A stretch of DNA of 64,000 nt from assembly GCF_001660705.2 (NCBI RefSeq), contig NZ_LYBV02000001.1, positions 124,001 to 188,000 on the forward strand. Direction: 5' to 3'. Every line of letters begins with the position of its first letter. Positions within the stretch are counted from its first letter, which is position 1. Origin of the DNA: Saccharicrinis aurantiacus. GTDB taxonomy: Bacteria; Bacteroidota; Bacteroidia; Bacteroidales; Marinilabiliaceae. The position numbers and the translations under genes are program-made. Under the pieces are notes generated by a model. That model worked only from the letters and a program-made list of their open reading frames with translations. It had not been told where the DNA came from and ran no database searches. Positions 50,464 through 56,723 of this stretch are shown piece by piece.

Positions 50464-52332
50464 ATGAATTATTTATCGGTTGAAGACCTAACGCAGCACT
50501 GGGGAGAGATTAAGTTATTTGATAATCTAACGTTTGGTATCTCGGAGGGACAGAAAGTTGGATTGATTGCAAGAAACGGAGAGGGTAAAACAACTTTGCT
50601 CAATATTTTAGGTAAAGTTAAGCCTGCAGAAACAGGTTCGGTTGTTTATCGTAAAGGAATTTCTTTAGGATACCTGTCACAAGATCCGGTTTTGAATAAC
50701 GATAATACAGTAATCGAAGAGATTTTTGCTTCAGAGAATCCTCAGGTAATTGCAATTAAGGCTTATGAAAATGCGCTTGCAAATGAAGATCATGAAGCTT
50801 TAGGGGATTTAATTGAGCAACTTGATAAATTAGGTGCTTGGGATTTTGAAGCACGTATTAAGCAAATTCTATCTCAACTTAAAATTACGCGTTTTGAACA
50901 AAAAATTAGTCAGCTAAGCGGAGGGCAAAAGAAACGTGTTGCTATGGCTAATATTTTAATTAACGAACCTGATTTTTTAATATTGGATGAGCCAACAAAT
51001 CACCTTGATTTGGAGATGATAGAATGGTTAGAGGAGTACTTGAAACGTTCAAAGGCTACTTTAATAATGGTTACGCATGATAGGTATTTTTTGGATCGTG
51101 TTTGTAACGAAATTCTTGAGATGGCGGATAGAACACTCTATCCGTATAAGGGTAATTATGCCTATTTTCTCGAAAAAAGAGAAGAGCGTATTGCTACAAC
51201 AGCACAGCAAGTTGAAAAAGCAAAGAATCTCTTAAAGAAAGAACAAGATTGGATGAATCGTCAACCACAGGCTCGTGGTACAAAAGCGAAATATAGAATT
51301 GATGCTTTTCATGATTTAAAAAAGAAAGCCAATAGCGGAACAACAGAGAAGTCTATTAATCTGAATATAAAATCAGCTAGGTTAGGTAAAAAAATTATTG
51401 AGTGTTTTGATATAAATAAGAGTTTTGATGACTTAGCTATACTAAAGGATTTCAGTTACAAATTTGCCCAAGGTGAAAAATTGGGTATTATTGGAAAAAA
51501 TGGTACGGGTAAATCAACCTTCTTAAATACCATTACAGGCGCTTTGCCTCCGGATTCAGGAACCATTGAAACAGGTGAAACTGTTGTGGTTGGTTACTAT
51601 CATCAGAATGGAATGAAGATAGATGAGTCGAAAAAAGTAATTGATGTAATTGCTGAAATTTCGGAGAATATTACATTAGGTTCTGGAGATTCAATGGGCC
51701 CAGCTCAGTTTTTGCGTTACTTTTTATTTGGAAACGAAATGCACCATGTGCAGGTTGATAAATTGAGTGGAGGCGAGAAGAAACGATTGTACTTGATGAC
51801 TGTATTGATGAAGAATCCAAATTTTCTGATTCTTGATGAGCCTACCAATGATTTAGATATTTTCACCTTAAATCTGTTAGAAGAATACCTTCAAGCTTTT
51901 AAAGGTTGCGTTATAATTGTTTCGCACGATAGGTATTTTATGGATAAAATTGTAGATCATCTTTTTGTTTTTGAAGGGCAAGGAGAGATTAAAGATTTCC
52001 CAGGAAATTATTCAATTTATCATGATTTTAAAGTAAACGAAGAAAAGGAAAAGCGCAAACAAGAGCGAGCAGTAAAAGAACCTGCAAAACCAAAAACTGA
52101 AGTAAAAGAAAAGCCTCGGAAATTATCTTTTAAAGAGAAGAAGGAAATGGAAGAGATTGAAGCTAATTTGGAAGCGTTATCTGCGGAAAAAGAAGAGATT
52201 GAAAACGGTTTGAATTCGGGTACGTTGGATAACGAAACGCTTACTGAAAAATCAAAGCGCTTAAATGAAATTATGGCAGAGCTGGACGAAAAAGAAATGC
52301 GTTGGTTAGAGTTGAGTGAAATTGGCAGCTAA
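50464..52332 (+). CDS. ABC-F family ATPase (Uup-like)
   Basis: 622 aa with two ABC domains and no TM segments. The first Walker A is GLIARNGEGKTTLL with LSGGQKKRVAMA and LILDEPTNHLDL; the second is GIIGKNGTGKSTFL with LSGGEKKRLYLM and LILDEPTNDLDI. The interdomain linker (about 235-300) is basic and helical (the P-site tRNA interaction motif). A C-terminal Lys/Glu-rich coiled coil (about 530-622) is typical of Uup-like members. ABC-F proteins act on the ribosome, relieving stalling or giving antibiotic resistance. It is not a transporter subunit. The next downstream feature is the pheA operon promoter. Confidence 0.93.
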   Translation: MNYLSVEDLTQHWGEIKLFDNLTFGISEGQKVGLIARNGEGKTTLLNILGKVKPAETGSVVYRKGISLGYLSQDPVLNNDNTVIEEIFASENPQVIAIKAYENALANEDHEALGDLIEQLDKLGAWDFEARIKQILSQLKITRFEQKISQLSGGQKKRVAMANILINEPDFLILDEPTNHLDLEMIEWLEEYLKRSKATLIMVTHDRYFLDRVCNEILEMADRTLYPYKGNYAYFLEKREERIATTAQQVEKAKNLLKKEQDWMNRQPQARGTKAKYRIDAFHDLKKKANSGTTEKSINLNIKSARLGKKIIECFDINKSFDDLAILKDFSYKFAQGEKLGIIGKNGTGKSTFLNTITGALPPDSGTIETGETVVVGYYHQNGMKIDESKKVIDVIAEISENITLGSGDSMGPAQFLRYFLFGNEMHHVQVDKLSGGEKKRLYLMTVLMKNPNFLILDEPTNDLDIFTLNLLEEYLQAFKGCVIIVSHDRYFMDKIVDHLFVFEGQGEIKDFPGNYSIYHDFKVNEEKEKRKQERAVKEPAKPKTEVKEKPRKLSFKEKKEMEEIEANLEALSAEKEEIENGLNSGTLDNETLTEKSKRLNEIMAELDEKEMRWLELSEIGS

Positions 52333-52424: not shown

Positions 52425-52432
52425 TACTTTTG
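52425..52432 (+). promoter_or_regulatory. -7 promoter element of the pheA operon
   Basis: TACTTTTG, exact TAnnTTTG match. Transcription would start near 52439, about 26 nt before the leader peptide ATG and about 190 nt before pheA. Confidence 0.6.
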
Positions 52433-52464
52433 TCAGCGTTACAATTAAAACAAGAGATTTAGTG

Positions 52465-52542
52465 ATGACCCACATTGCATATTTTTATAGCTTTTATTTT
52501 TACTTTTTTGGTTTCTGTAATCCAAAAGAGGTGGGTATATAA
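52465..52542 (+). CDS. Phe/Tyr leader peptide of the pheA attenuator
   Basis: A 25-codon ORF starting ATG 52465 and ending TAA 52540-52542. Residues 6-17 read YFYSFYFYFFGF; the whole peptide has six Phe and four Tyr codons. The downstream operon makes exactly these two amino acids. Stalling at these codons when charged Phe- or Tyr-tRNA is scarce would leave GGTGGG (52530-52535), at the end of the ORF, free to pair with CCCACC (52574-52579) and block the terminator. A further pairing, ACCCAC (52468-52473) with GTGGGT (52531-52536), gives the alternative state. The ORF is short but its composition and placement are highly unlikely by chance. Confidence 0.85.
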   Translation: MTHIAYFYSFYFYFFGFCNPKEVGI

Positions 52543-52602
52543 TATATAATTACTAACAAGAAATTATAAAAGTCCCACCATAACAGGTGGGACTTTTTTT
52601 TT
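52468..52602 (+). promoter_or_regulatory. Phe/Tyr transcription attenuator (segments 1 to 4)
   Basis: Four mutually exclusive segments. Segment 1 is ACCCAC (52468-52473), segment 2 GGTGGGT (52530-52536), segment 3 GTCCCACC (52572-52579) and segment 4 GGTGGGAC (52586-52593). Pairing 1:2 or a ribosome at the leader stop allows 3:4, the terminator. A ribosome stalled on the Phe/Tyr codons allows 2:3, the antiterminator. The layout matches classical amino-acid attenuators of proteobacteria. Confidence 0.8.
52568..52602 (+). terminator. Attenuator terminator before pheA
   Basis: A perfect stem AAAGTCCCACC / GGTGGGACTTT with a 6-nt loop followed by a run of nine T residues, ending 28 bp before the pheA ATG. 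It would end transcription before pheA unless the antiterminator forms. Confidence 0.9.
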
Positions 52603-52629
52603 ACGTCAATATTAAACGAAGAAATAGGA

Positions 52630-53532
52630 ATGAGCTTAAGAAAAGTAGCTATACAAGGCGGTGCCGGTTCAAATCATGAGATTGCCGCAAATGCTTTTTT
52701 TGAAGAAGATAGTTTGGAGATGGTTCCTTGTGAGTCTTTTCCAGAGCTCTTTGATACTTTAAAAAGCGACAATAGCATATACGGTATTGTGGCTATTGAG
52801 AACACTTTAGTTGGAAGTATTCTTGAAAATTATACTTTGCTTAAAGATTCGGGTTTGGTTATCATAGGGGAGTATAAGTTGCGTATTAAGCATCAGTTAA
52901 TGACTTTACCAGGTCAAAAAATTGAAGATATAACAGAGGTGCATTCTCATCCAATGGCACTCGCTCAATGTCGTCAGTTTTTCAAGGATTATCCCCACAT
53001 TAAATTAATTTCTGCTGATGATACAGCCCTAAGTGCAAAGCGTATTAACGATGGTCAGCTAACAGGTGTTGCTGCTATTGCTCCTGATTTGGCCGCAGAG
53101 CAATATAATATGGAAATTATAGCTCAGGATATTGAAACCAACAAACGAAATTTCACACGTTTTTTAATTGTTTCAGATAGAGGAAAAACGGAAGTGGATG
53201 ATTTATTAATCAACAATAAAATAAATAAATCGTCTATCGTATTTGCGCTTCCTCATTCAGAAGGAAGTCTATCAAAAGTGCTTTCTATATTAGCATTCTA
53301 TAACATAAACTTAACTAAAATACAATCATTACCTGTTGTAGGGCAGGAGTGGGAATACTTATTTTACGTTGATCTAATATTTGAAGATTACATAAGATAT
53401 AAACAATCATTAGACGCTATAAAGCCACTGACAAAAGGTTTGCAAAGCCTAGGTGAATATCATGTTGGCAAACGTTCTTTCGATACTGTTAGTAACGATA
53501 ATAAACCTTTATCAGAACAAAAAACCTTCTAA
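52630..53532 (+). CDS. pheA: Prephenate dehydratase
   Basis: 300 aa; converts prephenate to phenylpyruvate. The periplasmic-binding-like catalytic domain spans about 5-190 (AIQGGAGSNHEIAA, YGIVAIENTLVGSILENY, VHSHPMALAQCRQFF, and NKRNFTRFL, whose Thr-Arg-Phe is the catalytic TRF motif). The ACT domain (about 200-290) shows SEGSLSKVLSILAFYNINLTKIQS; the usual ESRP of Phe-inhibited enzymes reads IQSLP, so feedback binding may be altered. There is no fused chorismate mutase, which instead sits on the DAHP synthase two genes downstream. It is the first gene behind the attenuator. Confidence 0.95.
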   Translation: MSLRKVAIQGGAGSNHEIAANAFFEEDSLEMVPCESFPELFDTLKSDNSIYGIVAIENTLVGSILENYTLLKDSGLVIIGEYKLRIKHQLMTLPGQKIEDITEVHSHPMALAQCRQFFKDYPHIKLISADDTALSAKRINDGQLTGVAAIAPDLAAEQYNMEIIAQDIETNKRNFTRFLIVSDRGKTEVDDLLINNKINKSSIVFALPHSEGSLSKVLSILAFYNINLTKIQSLPVVGQEWEYLFYVDLIFEDYIRYKQSLDAIKPLTKGLQSLGEYHVGKRSFDTVSNDNKPLSEQKTF

Positions 53533-53536
53533 TAAA

Positions 53537-54700
53537 ATGAGCATACAACCTGCAAAAAGAATTAGCGAAGTAAAAGAATATTACTTTTCTAAAAAGCTAA
53601 GAGAAATTGATGAAAAGCGTCAGCAAGGCATGTCTATTATAAACCTAGGGATAGGTAATCCAGATAGACCACCGCATGAGGATGTTTTAGCGGAGTTAAC
53701 ACAGGCTTCTAATGCATCTACTAATCATGGTTATCAGAGTTATGTTGGTATTCCCGAATTACGCGAAGCATTTTCAAAGTGGTATTCAAAGCATTTTAGT
53801 GTTGAGTTAAATCCTGCAAAAGAGGTATTGCCATTAATGGGGTCTAAGGAAGGTATCATGCATATTTCAATGGCTTTTTTAAATAAAGGCGATAAAGTGC
53901 TTGTGCCAAATCCAGGATATCCTACTTATGCTTCGGTATCTAATTTGGTGGAAGCGGAAATGGTTAATTATGAACTTAAGGAGGAGTTAAATTGGCAACC
54001 TGATTTTGATGAGTTAGAAAAGCAAGATTTATCAAAAGTAAAACTCATGTGGGTAAATTACCCCAATATGCCTACTGGTGCCAACGCTACTATTGAGTTG
54101 TTTGAAAAACTAGTTGCCTTTGGTAAAAAGCACAATATATTAATCTGTAATGATAACCCTTACAGCTTTATATTGAATGACAAGCCACTTAGTATATTTA
54201 GAGTAAAAGGCGCAAAAGATATTTGTATTGAGTTAAACTCATTAAGCAAATCGCATAATATGGCGGGTTGGCGTGTTGGAATGGTAGCTGCGAAGTCAAG
54301 TTATATCCAATATATATTACGTGTAAAAAGTAATATGGATAGCGGAATGTTTAAACCATTACAATTAGCTGCAGTAAAGGCTTTAAGTCTTGAAAAAGAT
54401 TGGTACGGTGAGGTAAATAAAGAATACCTTGAGCGTAGAGAATTAGTATGGAAGATTATGGATATGCTCAATTGTAAGTACGATAAAGATCAATCGGGTA
54501 TGTTTATTTGGGCTCGTATTCCTGAAAATATTAGCTCGGCCATTGAATTGTCAGATGTAATTTTGAATAAAGCACATGTTTTTATTACACCGGGCACAAT
54601 ATTTGGTAGTCAAGGTGATAAATTCATCAGAATTTCATTGTGTGCCAATAAAGAAGTGTTAAAAGAATCAATAATAAAAATACAGAACAGCTTAAAATAA
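53537..54700 (+). CDS. Aminotransferase of the Phe/Tyr operon
   Basis: 387-aa fold-type I aminotransferase; the ATG at 53537, 4 bp after pheA, is preferred over an in-frame start inside pheA. Motifs are INLGIGNPDRPPHEDV, GSKEGIMHIS, VPNPGYPTY, WVNYPNMPTGA, ICNDNPYSF and the Schiff-base Lys in NSLSKSHNMAGWRVG. The pattern resembles LL-diaminopimelate/aspartate-type aminotransferases. Its position between pheA and the DAHP synthase suggests transamination of phenylpyruvate and 4-hydroxyphenylpyruvate (or of prephenate), but that is inference. Confidence 0.88.
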   Translation: MSIQPAKRISEVKEYYFSKKLREIDEKRQQGMSIINLGIGNPDRPPHEDVLAELTQASNASTNHGYQSYVGIPELREAFSKWYSKHFSVELNPAKEVLPLMGSKEGIMHISMAFLNKGDKVLVPNPGYPTYASVSNLVEAEMVNYELKEELNWQPDFDELEKQDLSKVKLMWVNYPNMPTGANATIELFEKLVAFGKKHNILICNDNPYSFILNDKPLSIFRVKGAKDICIELNSLSKSHNMAGWRVGMVAAKSSYIQYILRVKSNMDSGMFKPLQLAAVKALSLEKDWYGEVNKEYLERRELVWKIMDMLNCKYDKDQSGMFIWARIPENISSAIELSDVILNKAHVFITPGTIFGSQGDKFIRISLCANKEVLKESIIKIQNSLK

Positions 54701-55949: not shown

Positions 55950-56723
55950 ATGAAAATCTGTATACTTGGAGCCGGAAAAATGGGGACTTGGTTAAGTGAT
56001 GCACTATGCCTCGATCACGAAGTAGCCCTTTACGATCCAAACTTAGAAAAATTAAAATACGTTTTTAATACGCAACGTCTTACAAAGCTCGAAGAAATAA
56101 CTGAGTTTGCACCCCAAATTCTAGTTAATGCGGTTACTTTAAAGTATACCATTCAGGCTTTTGATGAGGTAATTCCTTACCTACCTAAAACTTGTATTAT
56201 TTCTGATATCTCATCGGTTAAAACCGGATTTAAAGAGTATTACGAAGCATCAGGTATGCCGTATGTTTCTACCCATCCAATGTTCGGACCAACTTTTGGT
56301 AACCTCAAAAGCTTAGGCGATCACCATTCAATTATTATTTCAGAAGGTGATCATTTGGGTAAAACATTTTTCAAAGATTTTTATAGTAGTCTCGGACTAA
56401 ATATACATGAGTACTCGTTTGTTGAGCACGATGAAACAATTGCATATTCATTGTCTATTCCTTTTTCATCAACTCTTGTGTTTGCATCGGTCATGAAAAA
56501 GCAAGAAGCACCTGGTACTACCTTTAAAAAGCATTTCGATATTGCCAAGGGTCTGTTAAGTGAAGATGATTATTTATTATCTGAGATTTTATTTAATCCA
56601 TTCACAAGCGGACAGGTTGAACAAATTAGGCTTAAACTAAAAGAGCTATTAGCAATTATTGAGACTAAAGATACCAAGAAGATGCAAGAATTTTTGGCTG
56701 AAGTAAGAGAGAATATTGAATAA
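55950..56723 (+). CDS. tyrA: Prephenate dehydrogenase
   Basis: 257 aa; oxidatively decarboxylates prephenate to 4-hydroxyphenylpyruvate for tyrosine. The Rossmann motif is ICILGAGKMGTWLSD with the acidic residue in ALYDPN favouring NAD, then DISSVKTGF and STHPMFGPTFGN (catalytic His region), and a C-terminal all-helical dimer domain. No ACT domain is seen, so regulation by Tyr is probably transcriptional, through the attenuator, or lies in the partner chorismate mutase. It is the last gene of the operon, 162 bp after aroF across an inverted-repeat element. Confidence 0.92.
   Translation: MKICILGAGKMGTWLSDALCLDHEVALYDPNLEKLKYVFNTQRLTKLEEITEFAPQILVNAVTLKYTIQAFDEVIPYLPKTCIISDISSVKTGFKEYYEASGMPYVSTHPMFGPTFGNLKSLGDHHSIIISEGDHLGKTFFKDFYSSLGLNIHEYSFVEHDETIAYSLSIPFSSTLVFASVMKKQEAPGTTFKKHFDIAKGLLSEDDYLLSEILFNPFTSGQVEQIRLKLKELLAIIETKDTKKMQEFLAEVRENIE

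Follow-up and report, generated by a model that had tools for sequence, protein, structure and literature searches.

The window analysed here is a 64,000-nucleotide stretch of the Saccharicrinis aurantiacus genome, and the locus that concerns us lies on its forward strand, where four genes follow one another: pheA, for prephenate dehydratase (52630-53532; PF00800, plus an ACT-domain hit too weak to reach the Pfam cut-off), a class I/II aminotransferase gene (53537-54700; PF00155), a gene in which DAHP synthase (PF00793) is fused to chorismate mutase (PF01817; 54708-55787) and tyrA, for prephenate dehydrogenase (55950-56723; PF02153). An earlier note on this DNA had read these genes as an operon, pheA-aminotransferase-aroF/CM-tyrA, and Pfam matches for all four bear out the gene assignments. 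Upstream, at 50464-52332, lies an ABC-F gene, and between it and the small elements that occupy us for the rest of this paper stands a promoter box.

That box, TACTTTTG (52425-52432), is a -7 element of the Bacteroidota TAnnTTTG type, read directly from the DNA, and transcription would be expected to start a few bases 3' of it. Next comes a leader-peptide ORF of 25 codons, MTHIAYFYSFYFYFFGFCNPKEVGI (52465-52542; ATG, 25 codons, TAA), with an in-frame GTG (52462) immediately 5' of its ATG. Residues 6-17 of the peptide are YFYSFYFYFFGF; 10 of these codons specify Phe or Tyr, and Tyr and Phe first occur side by side, at codons 6 and 7. The interval closes with an intrinsic terminator, AAAAGTCCCACC-ATAACA-GGTGGGACTTTT (52568-52597), a perfect 12-bp stem whose T run (52594-52602) shares its first four bases with the end of the 3' arm and ends 27 nt upstream of pheA. 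Promoter, Phe/Tyr-rich ORF and perfect terminator had all been claimed in the earlier note, and all are present.

How might these pieces act on one another? The same note proposed that GGTGGG (52530-52535) can choose between two partners, and the three motifs are where it had put them. In the RNA, segment 1 has an outer part, ACCCAC (52468-52473), which pairs with GUGGGU (52531-52536) in the folding and in relatives, and an inner part made of the control codons themselves, CUUUUUUGG (52503-52511). The pairing of these codons, CTTTTTTGG, with CCAAAAGAG (52522-52530), which adjoins segment 2, was overlooked before; it appears both in the folding and in the swap test described below, and because of it helix 1:2 exceeds the six pairs first counted. 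Segment 2, GGUGGGU (52530-52536), lies at the end of the ORF and takes as its partner either segment 1 or the CCCACC (52574-52579) of segment 3, the 5' arm of the terminator (AAAAGUCCCACC, 52568-52579); segment 4 is the 3' arm (GGUGGGACUUUU, 52586-52597).

Computed, these alternatives amount to two mutually exclusive foldings, either 1:2 together with 3:4 or 2:3. The isolated helices have energies of -17.1 (1:2), -12.7 (2:3) and -19.2 kcal/mol (3:4), within the range of the E. coli trp attenuator, and the leader as a whole has a folding energy of -42.9 kcal/mol, its shuffles one of -25.6 +/- 3.7 (z = -4.65; 0 of 200 shuffles). For free nascent RNA ending at 52545, folding gives the ACCCAC:GUGGGU pairing a probability of 0.98, and in the free RNA up to 52576, which represents the state without translation, helix 1:2 stands at 0.95-0.98. 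Ribosome states were represented by folding the RNA to the terminator loop with the ribosome footprint masked: the predicted probability of 2:3 is 0.95-1.0 with the ribosome at codons 1-18, a range covering every Phe/Tyr codon, and 0 with the ribosome at codons 20-26, stop codon included, segment 2 being inside the footprint of a ribosome placed at the stop codon. Once the RNA is full length, the terminator 3:4 wins at equilibrium in every masked state, so the decision of the switch must fall during transcription.

Is such a leader an accident of one genome? Among 167 pheA loci collected phylum-wide (related species are counted as independent here and in all of our statistics), 105 carry, upstream of pheA, an ORF that begins with ATG and has 8 or more Phe or Tyr in 10 consecutive residues. 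The controls gave such an ORF in none of 3363 equally long windows elsewhere in these loci, in none of 167 reverse strands and in 2 of 1670 dinucleotide shuffles. When 7 or more in 10 are taken as sufficient, the counts are 127 of 167 pheA loci, 2 of 3363 windows, 0 of 167 reverse strands and 7 of 1670 shuffles. Since comparable ORFs are nearly absent from the control windows and shuffles, U-richness is no explanation for the leader ORF. It occurs throughout the Marinilabiliaceae and elsewhere in the Bacteroidales (Paludibacter and Prevotella-like lineages among them), as well as in one named Flavobacteriaceae MAG and many further families of class Bacteroidia; judged by these genomes, the mixed Phe/Tyr leader is conserved across much of the class. 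In other words, the relatives in which the earlier note had suggested seeking the ORF and its alternative pairing have kept both, together with the terminator, and so have lineages far beyond them. Within the genus, each genome has one strong match to the R1 covariance model, located at pheA, and no second high-scoring copy, the extra matches being weaker (E 1e-4 to 1e-2).

The leader keeps company with the operon. If we call operon-type those loci in which pheA is followed by an aminotransferase gene or aroF, an ATG leader is found in 132 of 140 of them and in 0 of 26 solitary loci (Fisher p about 1e-23). L156, one of the eight operon-type exceptions, does have a Phe/Tyr ORF, which went unscored in the leader count because its ATG start is apparently missing. 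Seven operon-type loci (L124, L130, L144, L150, L163, L091 and L092) are without a detectable leader, and in these another control may stand in for it; three of the seven belong to one family (f35), which is why a substitution may have taken place there. The promoter, too, recurs: of 133 leader loci, 91 have TAnnTTTG 20-75 nt 5' of the leader ATG, most commonly at -28 to -32, as against 6 of 396 control windows further upstream, a placement which argues that the leader is part of the transcript.

If the two foldings matter to the cell, their arms should have changed together. Of 111 loci, 93 have a best 2:3 pairing stronger than that of at least 98 of 100 shuffles, and 99 have their segment 2 within -18 to +15 of the stop codon. 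When arm 3 is exchanged between species, the mean helix 2:3 goes from -14.49 kcal/mol with its own arm to -9.49 +/- 0.31 with a swapped one, the best of 10,000 permutations reaching -10.68; the corresponding exchange for 1:2, segment 2 against segment 1, gives -15.94 (own) and -12.34 +/- 0.27 kcal/mol (swapped). Arms as different as AGAGGTGGG/CCCGCCTC, AGAGCAGG/CCTGCTC, ACGAGACC/GGTCTCG, AATGAGAACT/AGTTCTC and GCAGTGAGC/GCTCACTG illustrate the co-variation of 2:3, and the comparison shows that segment 2 has evolved together with arm 3 of the terminator.

Closer to home, among 33 close relatives, the terminator stem 3:4 has five pairs altered on both sides (38 cells versus 11.7 in shuffles). 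The 2:3 helix is 97.5% paired in the same relatives and shows no double change; it varies mostly as A/G opposite U, because GGUGGG pairs with CCCACC and CCCGCC alike. The 1:2 helices are 87-88% paired (87.4% for the outer part), with few double changes. The compensatory changes that the earlier note hoped to see in all three stems are thus found for 3:4 within the close clade and for 2:3 across the phylum, not for 2:3 within the clade and sparingly for 1:2; the sequence evidence for 2:3 co-variation comes from the phylum-wide comparison, not from the close clade.

We consider it very probable that this is a ribosome-mediated, leader-peptide transcription attenuator of the trp/pheL type, in which a ribosome stalling on the leader controls pheA-aminotransferase-aroF/CM-tyrA. 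What one asks of such a device is seen here: a small ORF in which end-product codons abound, lying before the biosynthetic genes; an intrinsic terminator between the ORF and the first gene; mutually exclusive 1:2/3:4 and 2:3 helices, with segment 2 masked by the ribosome at the stop codon; and conserved pairing with compensatory change, in 3:4 among the 33 relatives and in 2:3 phylum-wide. Onto the layout of these parts, their conservation, the arms that co-vary in 2:3 and 3:4, the link to the operon and the folds predicted for each ribosome position, we would place transcription, translation, stalling and readthrough of the leader in this organism in the following way. RNA polymerase would start shortly 5' of 52465, and a ribosome would translate the leader behind it. 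With charged Phe- and Tyr-tRNA plentiful, the ribosome would come to the stop codon and cover segment 2 (52530-52536), leaving arm 3 free for arm 4, and transcription would terminate near 52602. With Phe-tRNA (and probably Tyr-tRNA) scarce, it would wait at codons 6-17 and break helix 1:2, the 2:3 antiterminator would form before arm 4 is made, and the polymerase would read into pheA. In the absence of translation, 1:2 would form first and favour termination.

Could the arrangement be simpler than this? One might suppose a plain terminator, serving the ABC-F gene or acting as a constitutive damper on pheA, next to a T-rich ORF that arose by chance, with no regulation at all; the hairpin is a strong one, the ABC-F gene ends about 235 nt before it and the ORF is indeed U-rich. 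We find this hardly credible, because the chance controls yield almost no comparable ORF (0 of 3363 windows), segment 2 co-evolves with arm 3, a promoter box separates the ABC-F gene from the leader and many leaders occur at loci whose upstream region yielded no ABC-F gene. A terminator belonging to the ABC-F gene was considered as such and rejected on the co-variation evidence. One might also suppose that some other riboregulator (a T-box, a riboswitch or an RNA-binding protein) or translational control acts on the leader, and here the same genome offers a hint, a Trp leader before trpE for which the scan gave no intrinsic terminator, so that variants of a non-terminator kind may exist nearby. 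This, too, is very improbable for the pheA leader, whose pairing logic requires terminator and ORF jointly. No Rfam family matches over the window at the gathering cut-off, T-boxes included, and T-boxes are likewise absent from a permissive search of the leader. The best of the weak matches in that 241-base search is Phe_leader (RF01859), at 30.3 bits (E = 0.0019) against the 55 bits of that family's gathering cut-off, which leaves our leader outside the family as Rfam draws it.

Attenuation before amino-acid operons is an old story, and candidate attenuators were reportedly described in Bacteroidetes/Chlorobi as well, by Vitreschak et al. in 2004. The nearest likeness is pheL of E. coli (RF01859), which also has a peptide rich in control codons, the 1:2, 2:3 and 3:4 helices, an intrinsic terminator and a position directly 5' of pheA. 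It holds Phe codons but no Tyr codons, and it controls the gene for CM-PDT alone, whereas the leader of the window has both codon types and serves a shared Phe/Tyr operon. The pheL attenuator is under Phe-tRNA control (PMC11802643). In Corynebacterium glutamicum, AroR is a Phe-Tyr-Phe leader before aroF, through which the ribosome attenuates an operon for DAHP synthase; it differs in having three named control codons, in sensing Phe limitation with no effect of Tyr availability and in its phylum and operon (PMC11802643). Within our own phylum, leader-peptide-like attenuation with putative leader peptides has been described upstream of amino-acid operons of Flavobacterium psychrophilum, along with a structured 5' element of pheA, conserved in Flavobacteriaceae and without an Rfam match; the accessible part of that account contains neither a peptide sequence nor any Phe/Tyr logic, and nothing beyond Flavobacteriaceae (PMC9723704). 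Two other elements differ in operon or phylum, namely Bacteroid-trp (RF01692), a cis-regulatory motif listed for Bacteroidetes (PMC2864571), and uORFC-13-1 of Acholeplasma, in which a uORF coding for Phe, together with a terminator, precedes aroF (PMC8632094). Bacteroides thetaiotaomicron has sORFs in 5' UTRs that are reminiscent of leader peptides (PMC7366714).

Other leaders turned up along the way. Upstream of hisG, chorismate-binding (trpE-type), homoserine dehydrogenase and leuA genes of the same genome, we looked for further examples and found a His leader, MTYITHHHGHLYKLP, about 190-60 nt 5' of hisG (L190, G000:C28), followed by a strong terminator, AAGAGGGCTTACC...GGTTAAGCCCTCTT with a T run, and a Trp leader, MNNTWWWHWLFLT, 94-40 nt 5' of trpE (L191, also G000:C28). 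The latter has no intrinsic terminator in the terminator scan and no Bacteroid-trp match in Rfam; with no terminator found, regulation at trpE may act on translation or in some other way. At seven loci, spread over three lineages, two Phe/Tyr leader ORFs stand in series before pheA: L073, L074 and L075 (Bacteroidales MAGs), L106 (G097), L116 (G226), L129 (G427) and L169 (G132). L073-L075 and L106 have a terminator after each ORF, whereas a strict scan finds only the first terminator in L116 and L129 and none in L169; in these last three, a GGCC-rich, hairpin-like sequence and a T run follow the second ORF. To judge by their layout, the double leaders look like tandem attenuators in series.

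What, then, does the ribosome sense? We lean toward true dual sensing of Phe and Tyr, both codon types being present and conserved in the control region. The rival is an attenuator that senses Phe-tRNA alone and retains its Tyr codons for some other reason, for example because AAAGUAAGAG-type sequence in segment 2 needs UAC UUU repeats as its partner. That reading is possible, although we would not bet on it. It has precedent in AroR, whose Phe-Tyr-Phe codons respond to Phe and not to Tyr (PMC11802643), and it has the control codons' membership of helix 1:2, which means that pairing constrains base changes there. It has to contend with Tyr in 126 of 127 distinct leaders, at least two Tyr in 125 of them, and Phe in all 127; with the use of both UAU (280) and UAC (204) for Tyr (TTT and TTC number 538 and 171 in the whole leader set); and with core positions that, in the aligned close clade, change almost solely among TTT/TTC and TAT/TAC. 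Phe and Tyr are also interleaved beyond chance, with 538 switches against 428 +/- 14 when labels are shuffled within each leader (0 of 1000), as expected if the ribosome must meet each type early, although pairing constraints could also be a source of the alternation. Finally, tyrA sits in the operon, from which an input from Tyr would be expected.

Trp is a guest in this company. Trp codons are found within the Phe/Tyr core of 27 of the 127 distinct leaders (L133, L139, L118, L137, L142, L155 and L057 among them), and Trp makes up 27 of 393 core residues other than Phe, Tyr and Met, compared with 209 of 34170 residues in PheA proteins, which are Trp-poor; these codons may be there because DAHP synthase also feeds Trp synthesis. 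We give an even chance to the broader idea of an aromatic OR-gate, old and widespread in Bacteroidia and in some lineages doubled into a tandem pair, in which selection has interleaved Phe and Tyr (and, in some lineages, Trp) codons so that a shortage of either would halt translation at almost one and the same point and open the whole aromatic operon that they share.

To our knowledge, the regulation of amino-acid synthesis in Bacteroidota is poorly known in comparison with proteobacteria. The earlier note held that a leader of this kind is little described in the phylum, and for the joint Phe/Tyr leader this stands, a search of open-access papers having found no description of one; it does not stand for leader-type attenuation as such or for a structured element 5' of pheA, both reported for F. 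psychrophilum (PMC9723704), nor for Rfam's Bacteroid-trp (PMC2864571). Given that report on amino-acid operons, the leader of the window is an instance of a known mechanism. The principle is that of classical attenuation, and the mixed Phe/Tyr control codons are what differs here. They make the leader a clean test case for the sensing of two amino acids by one leader, which did not hold in the one published Phe-Tyr-Phe case we found, C. glutamicum AroR (PMC11802643), and the leader set is a ready alignment for a family of the Rfam type. An unannotated, conserved leader peptide tied to one operon indicates, moreover, that classical attenuation is a standard mode of control in much of Bacteroidia.
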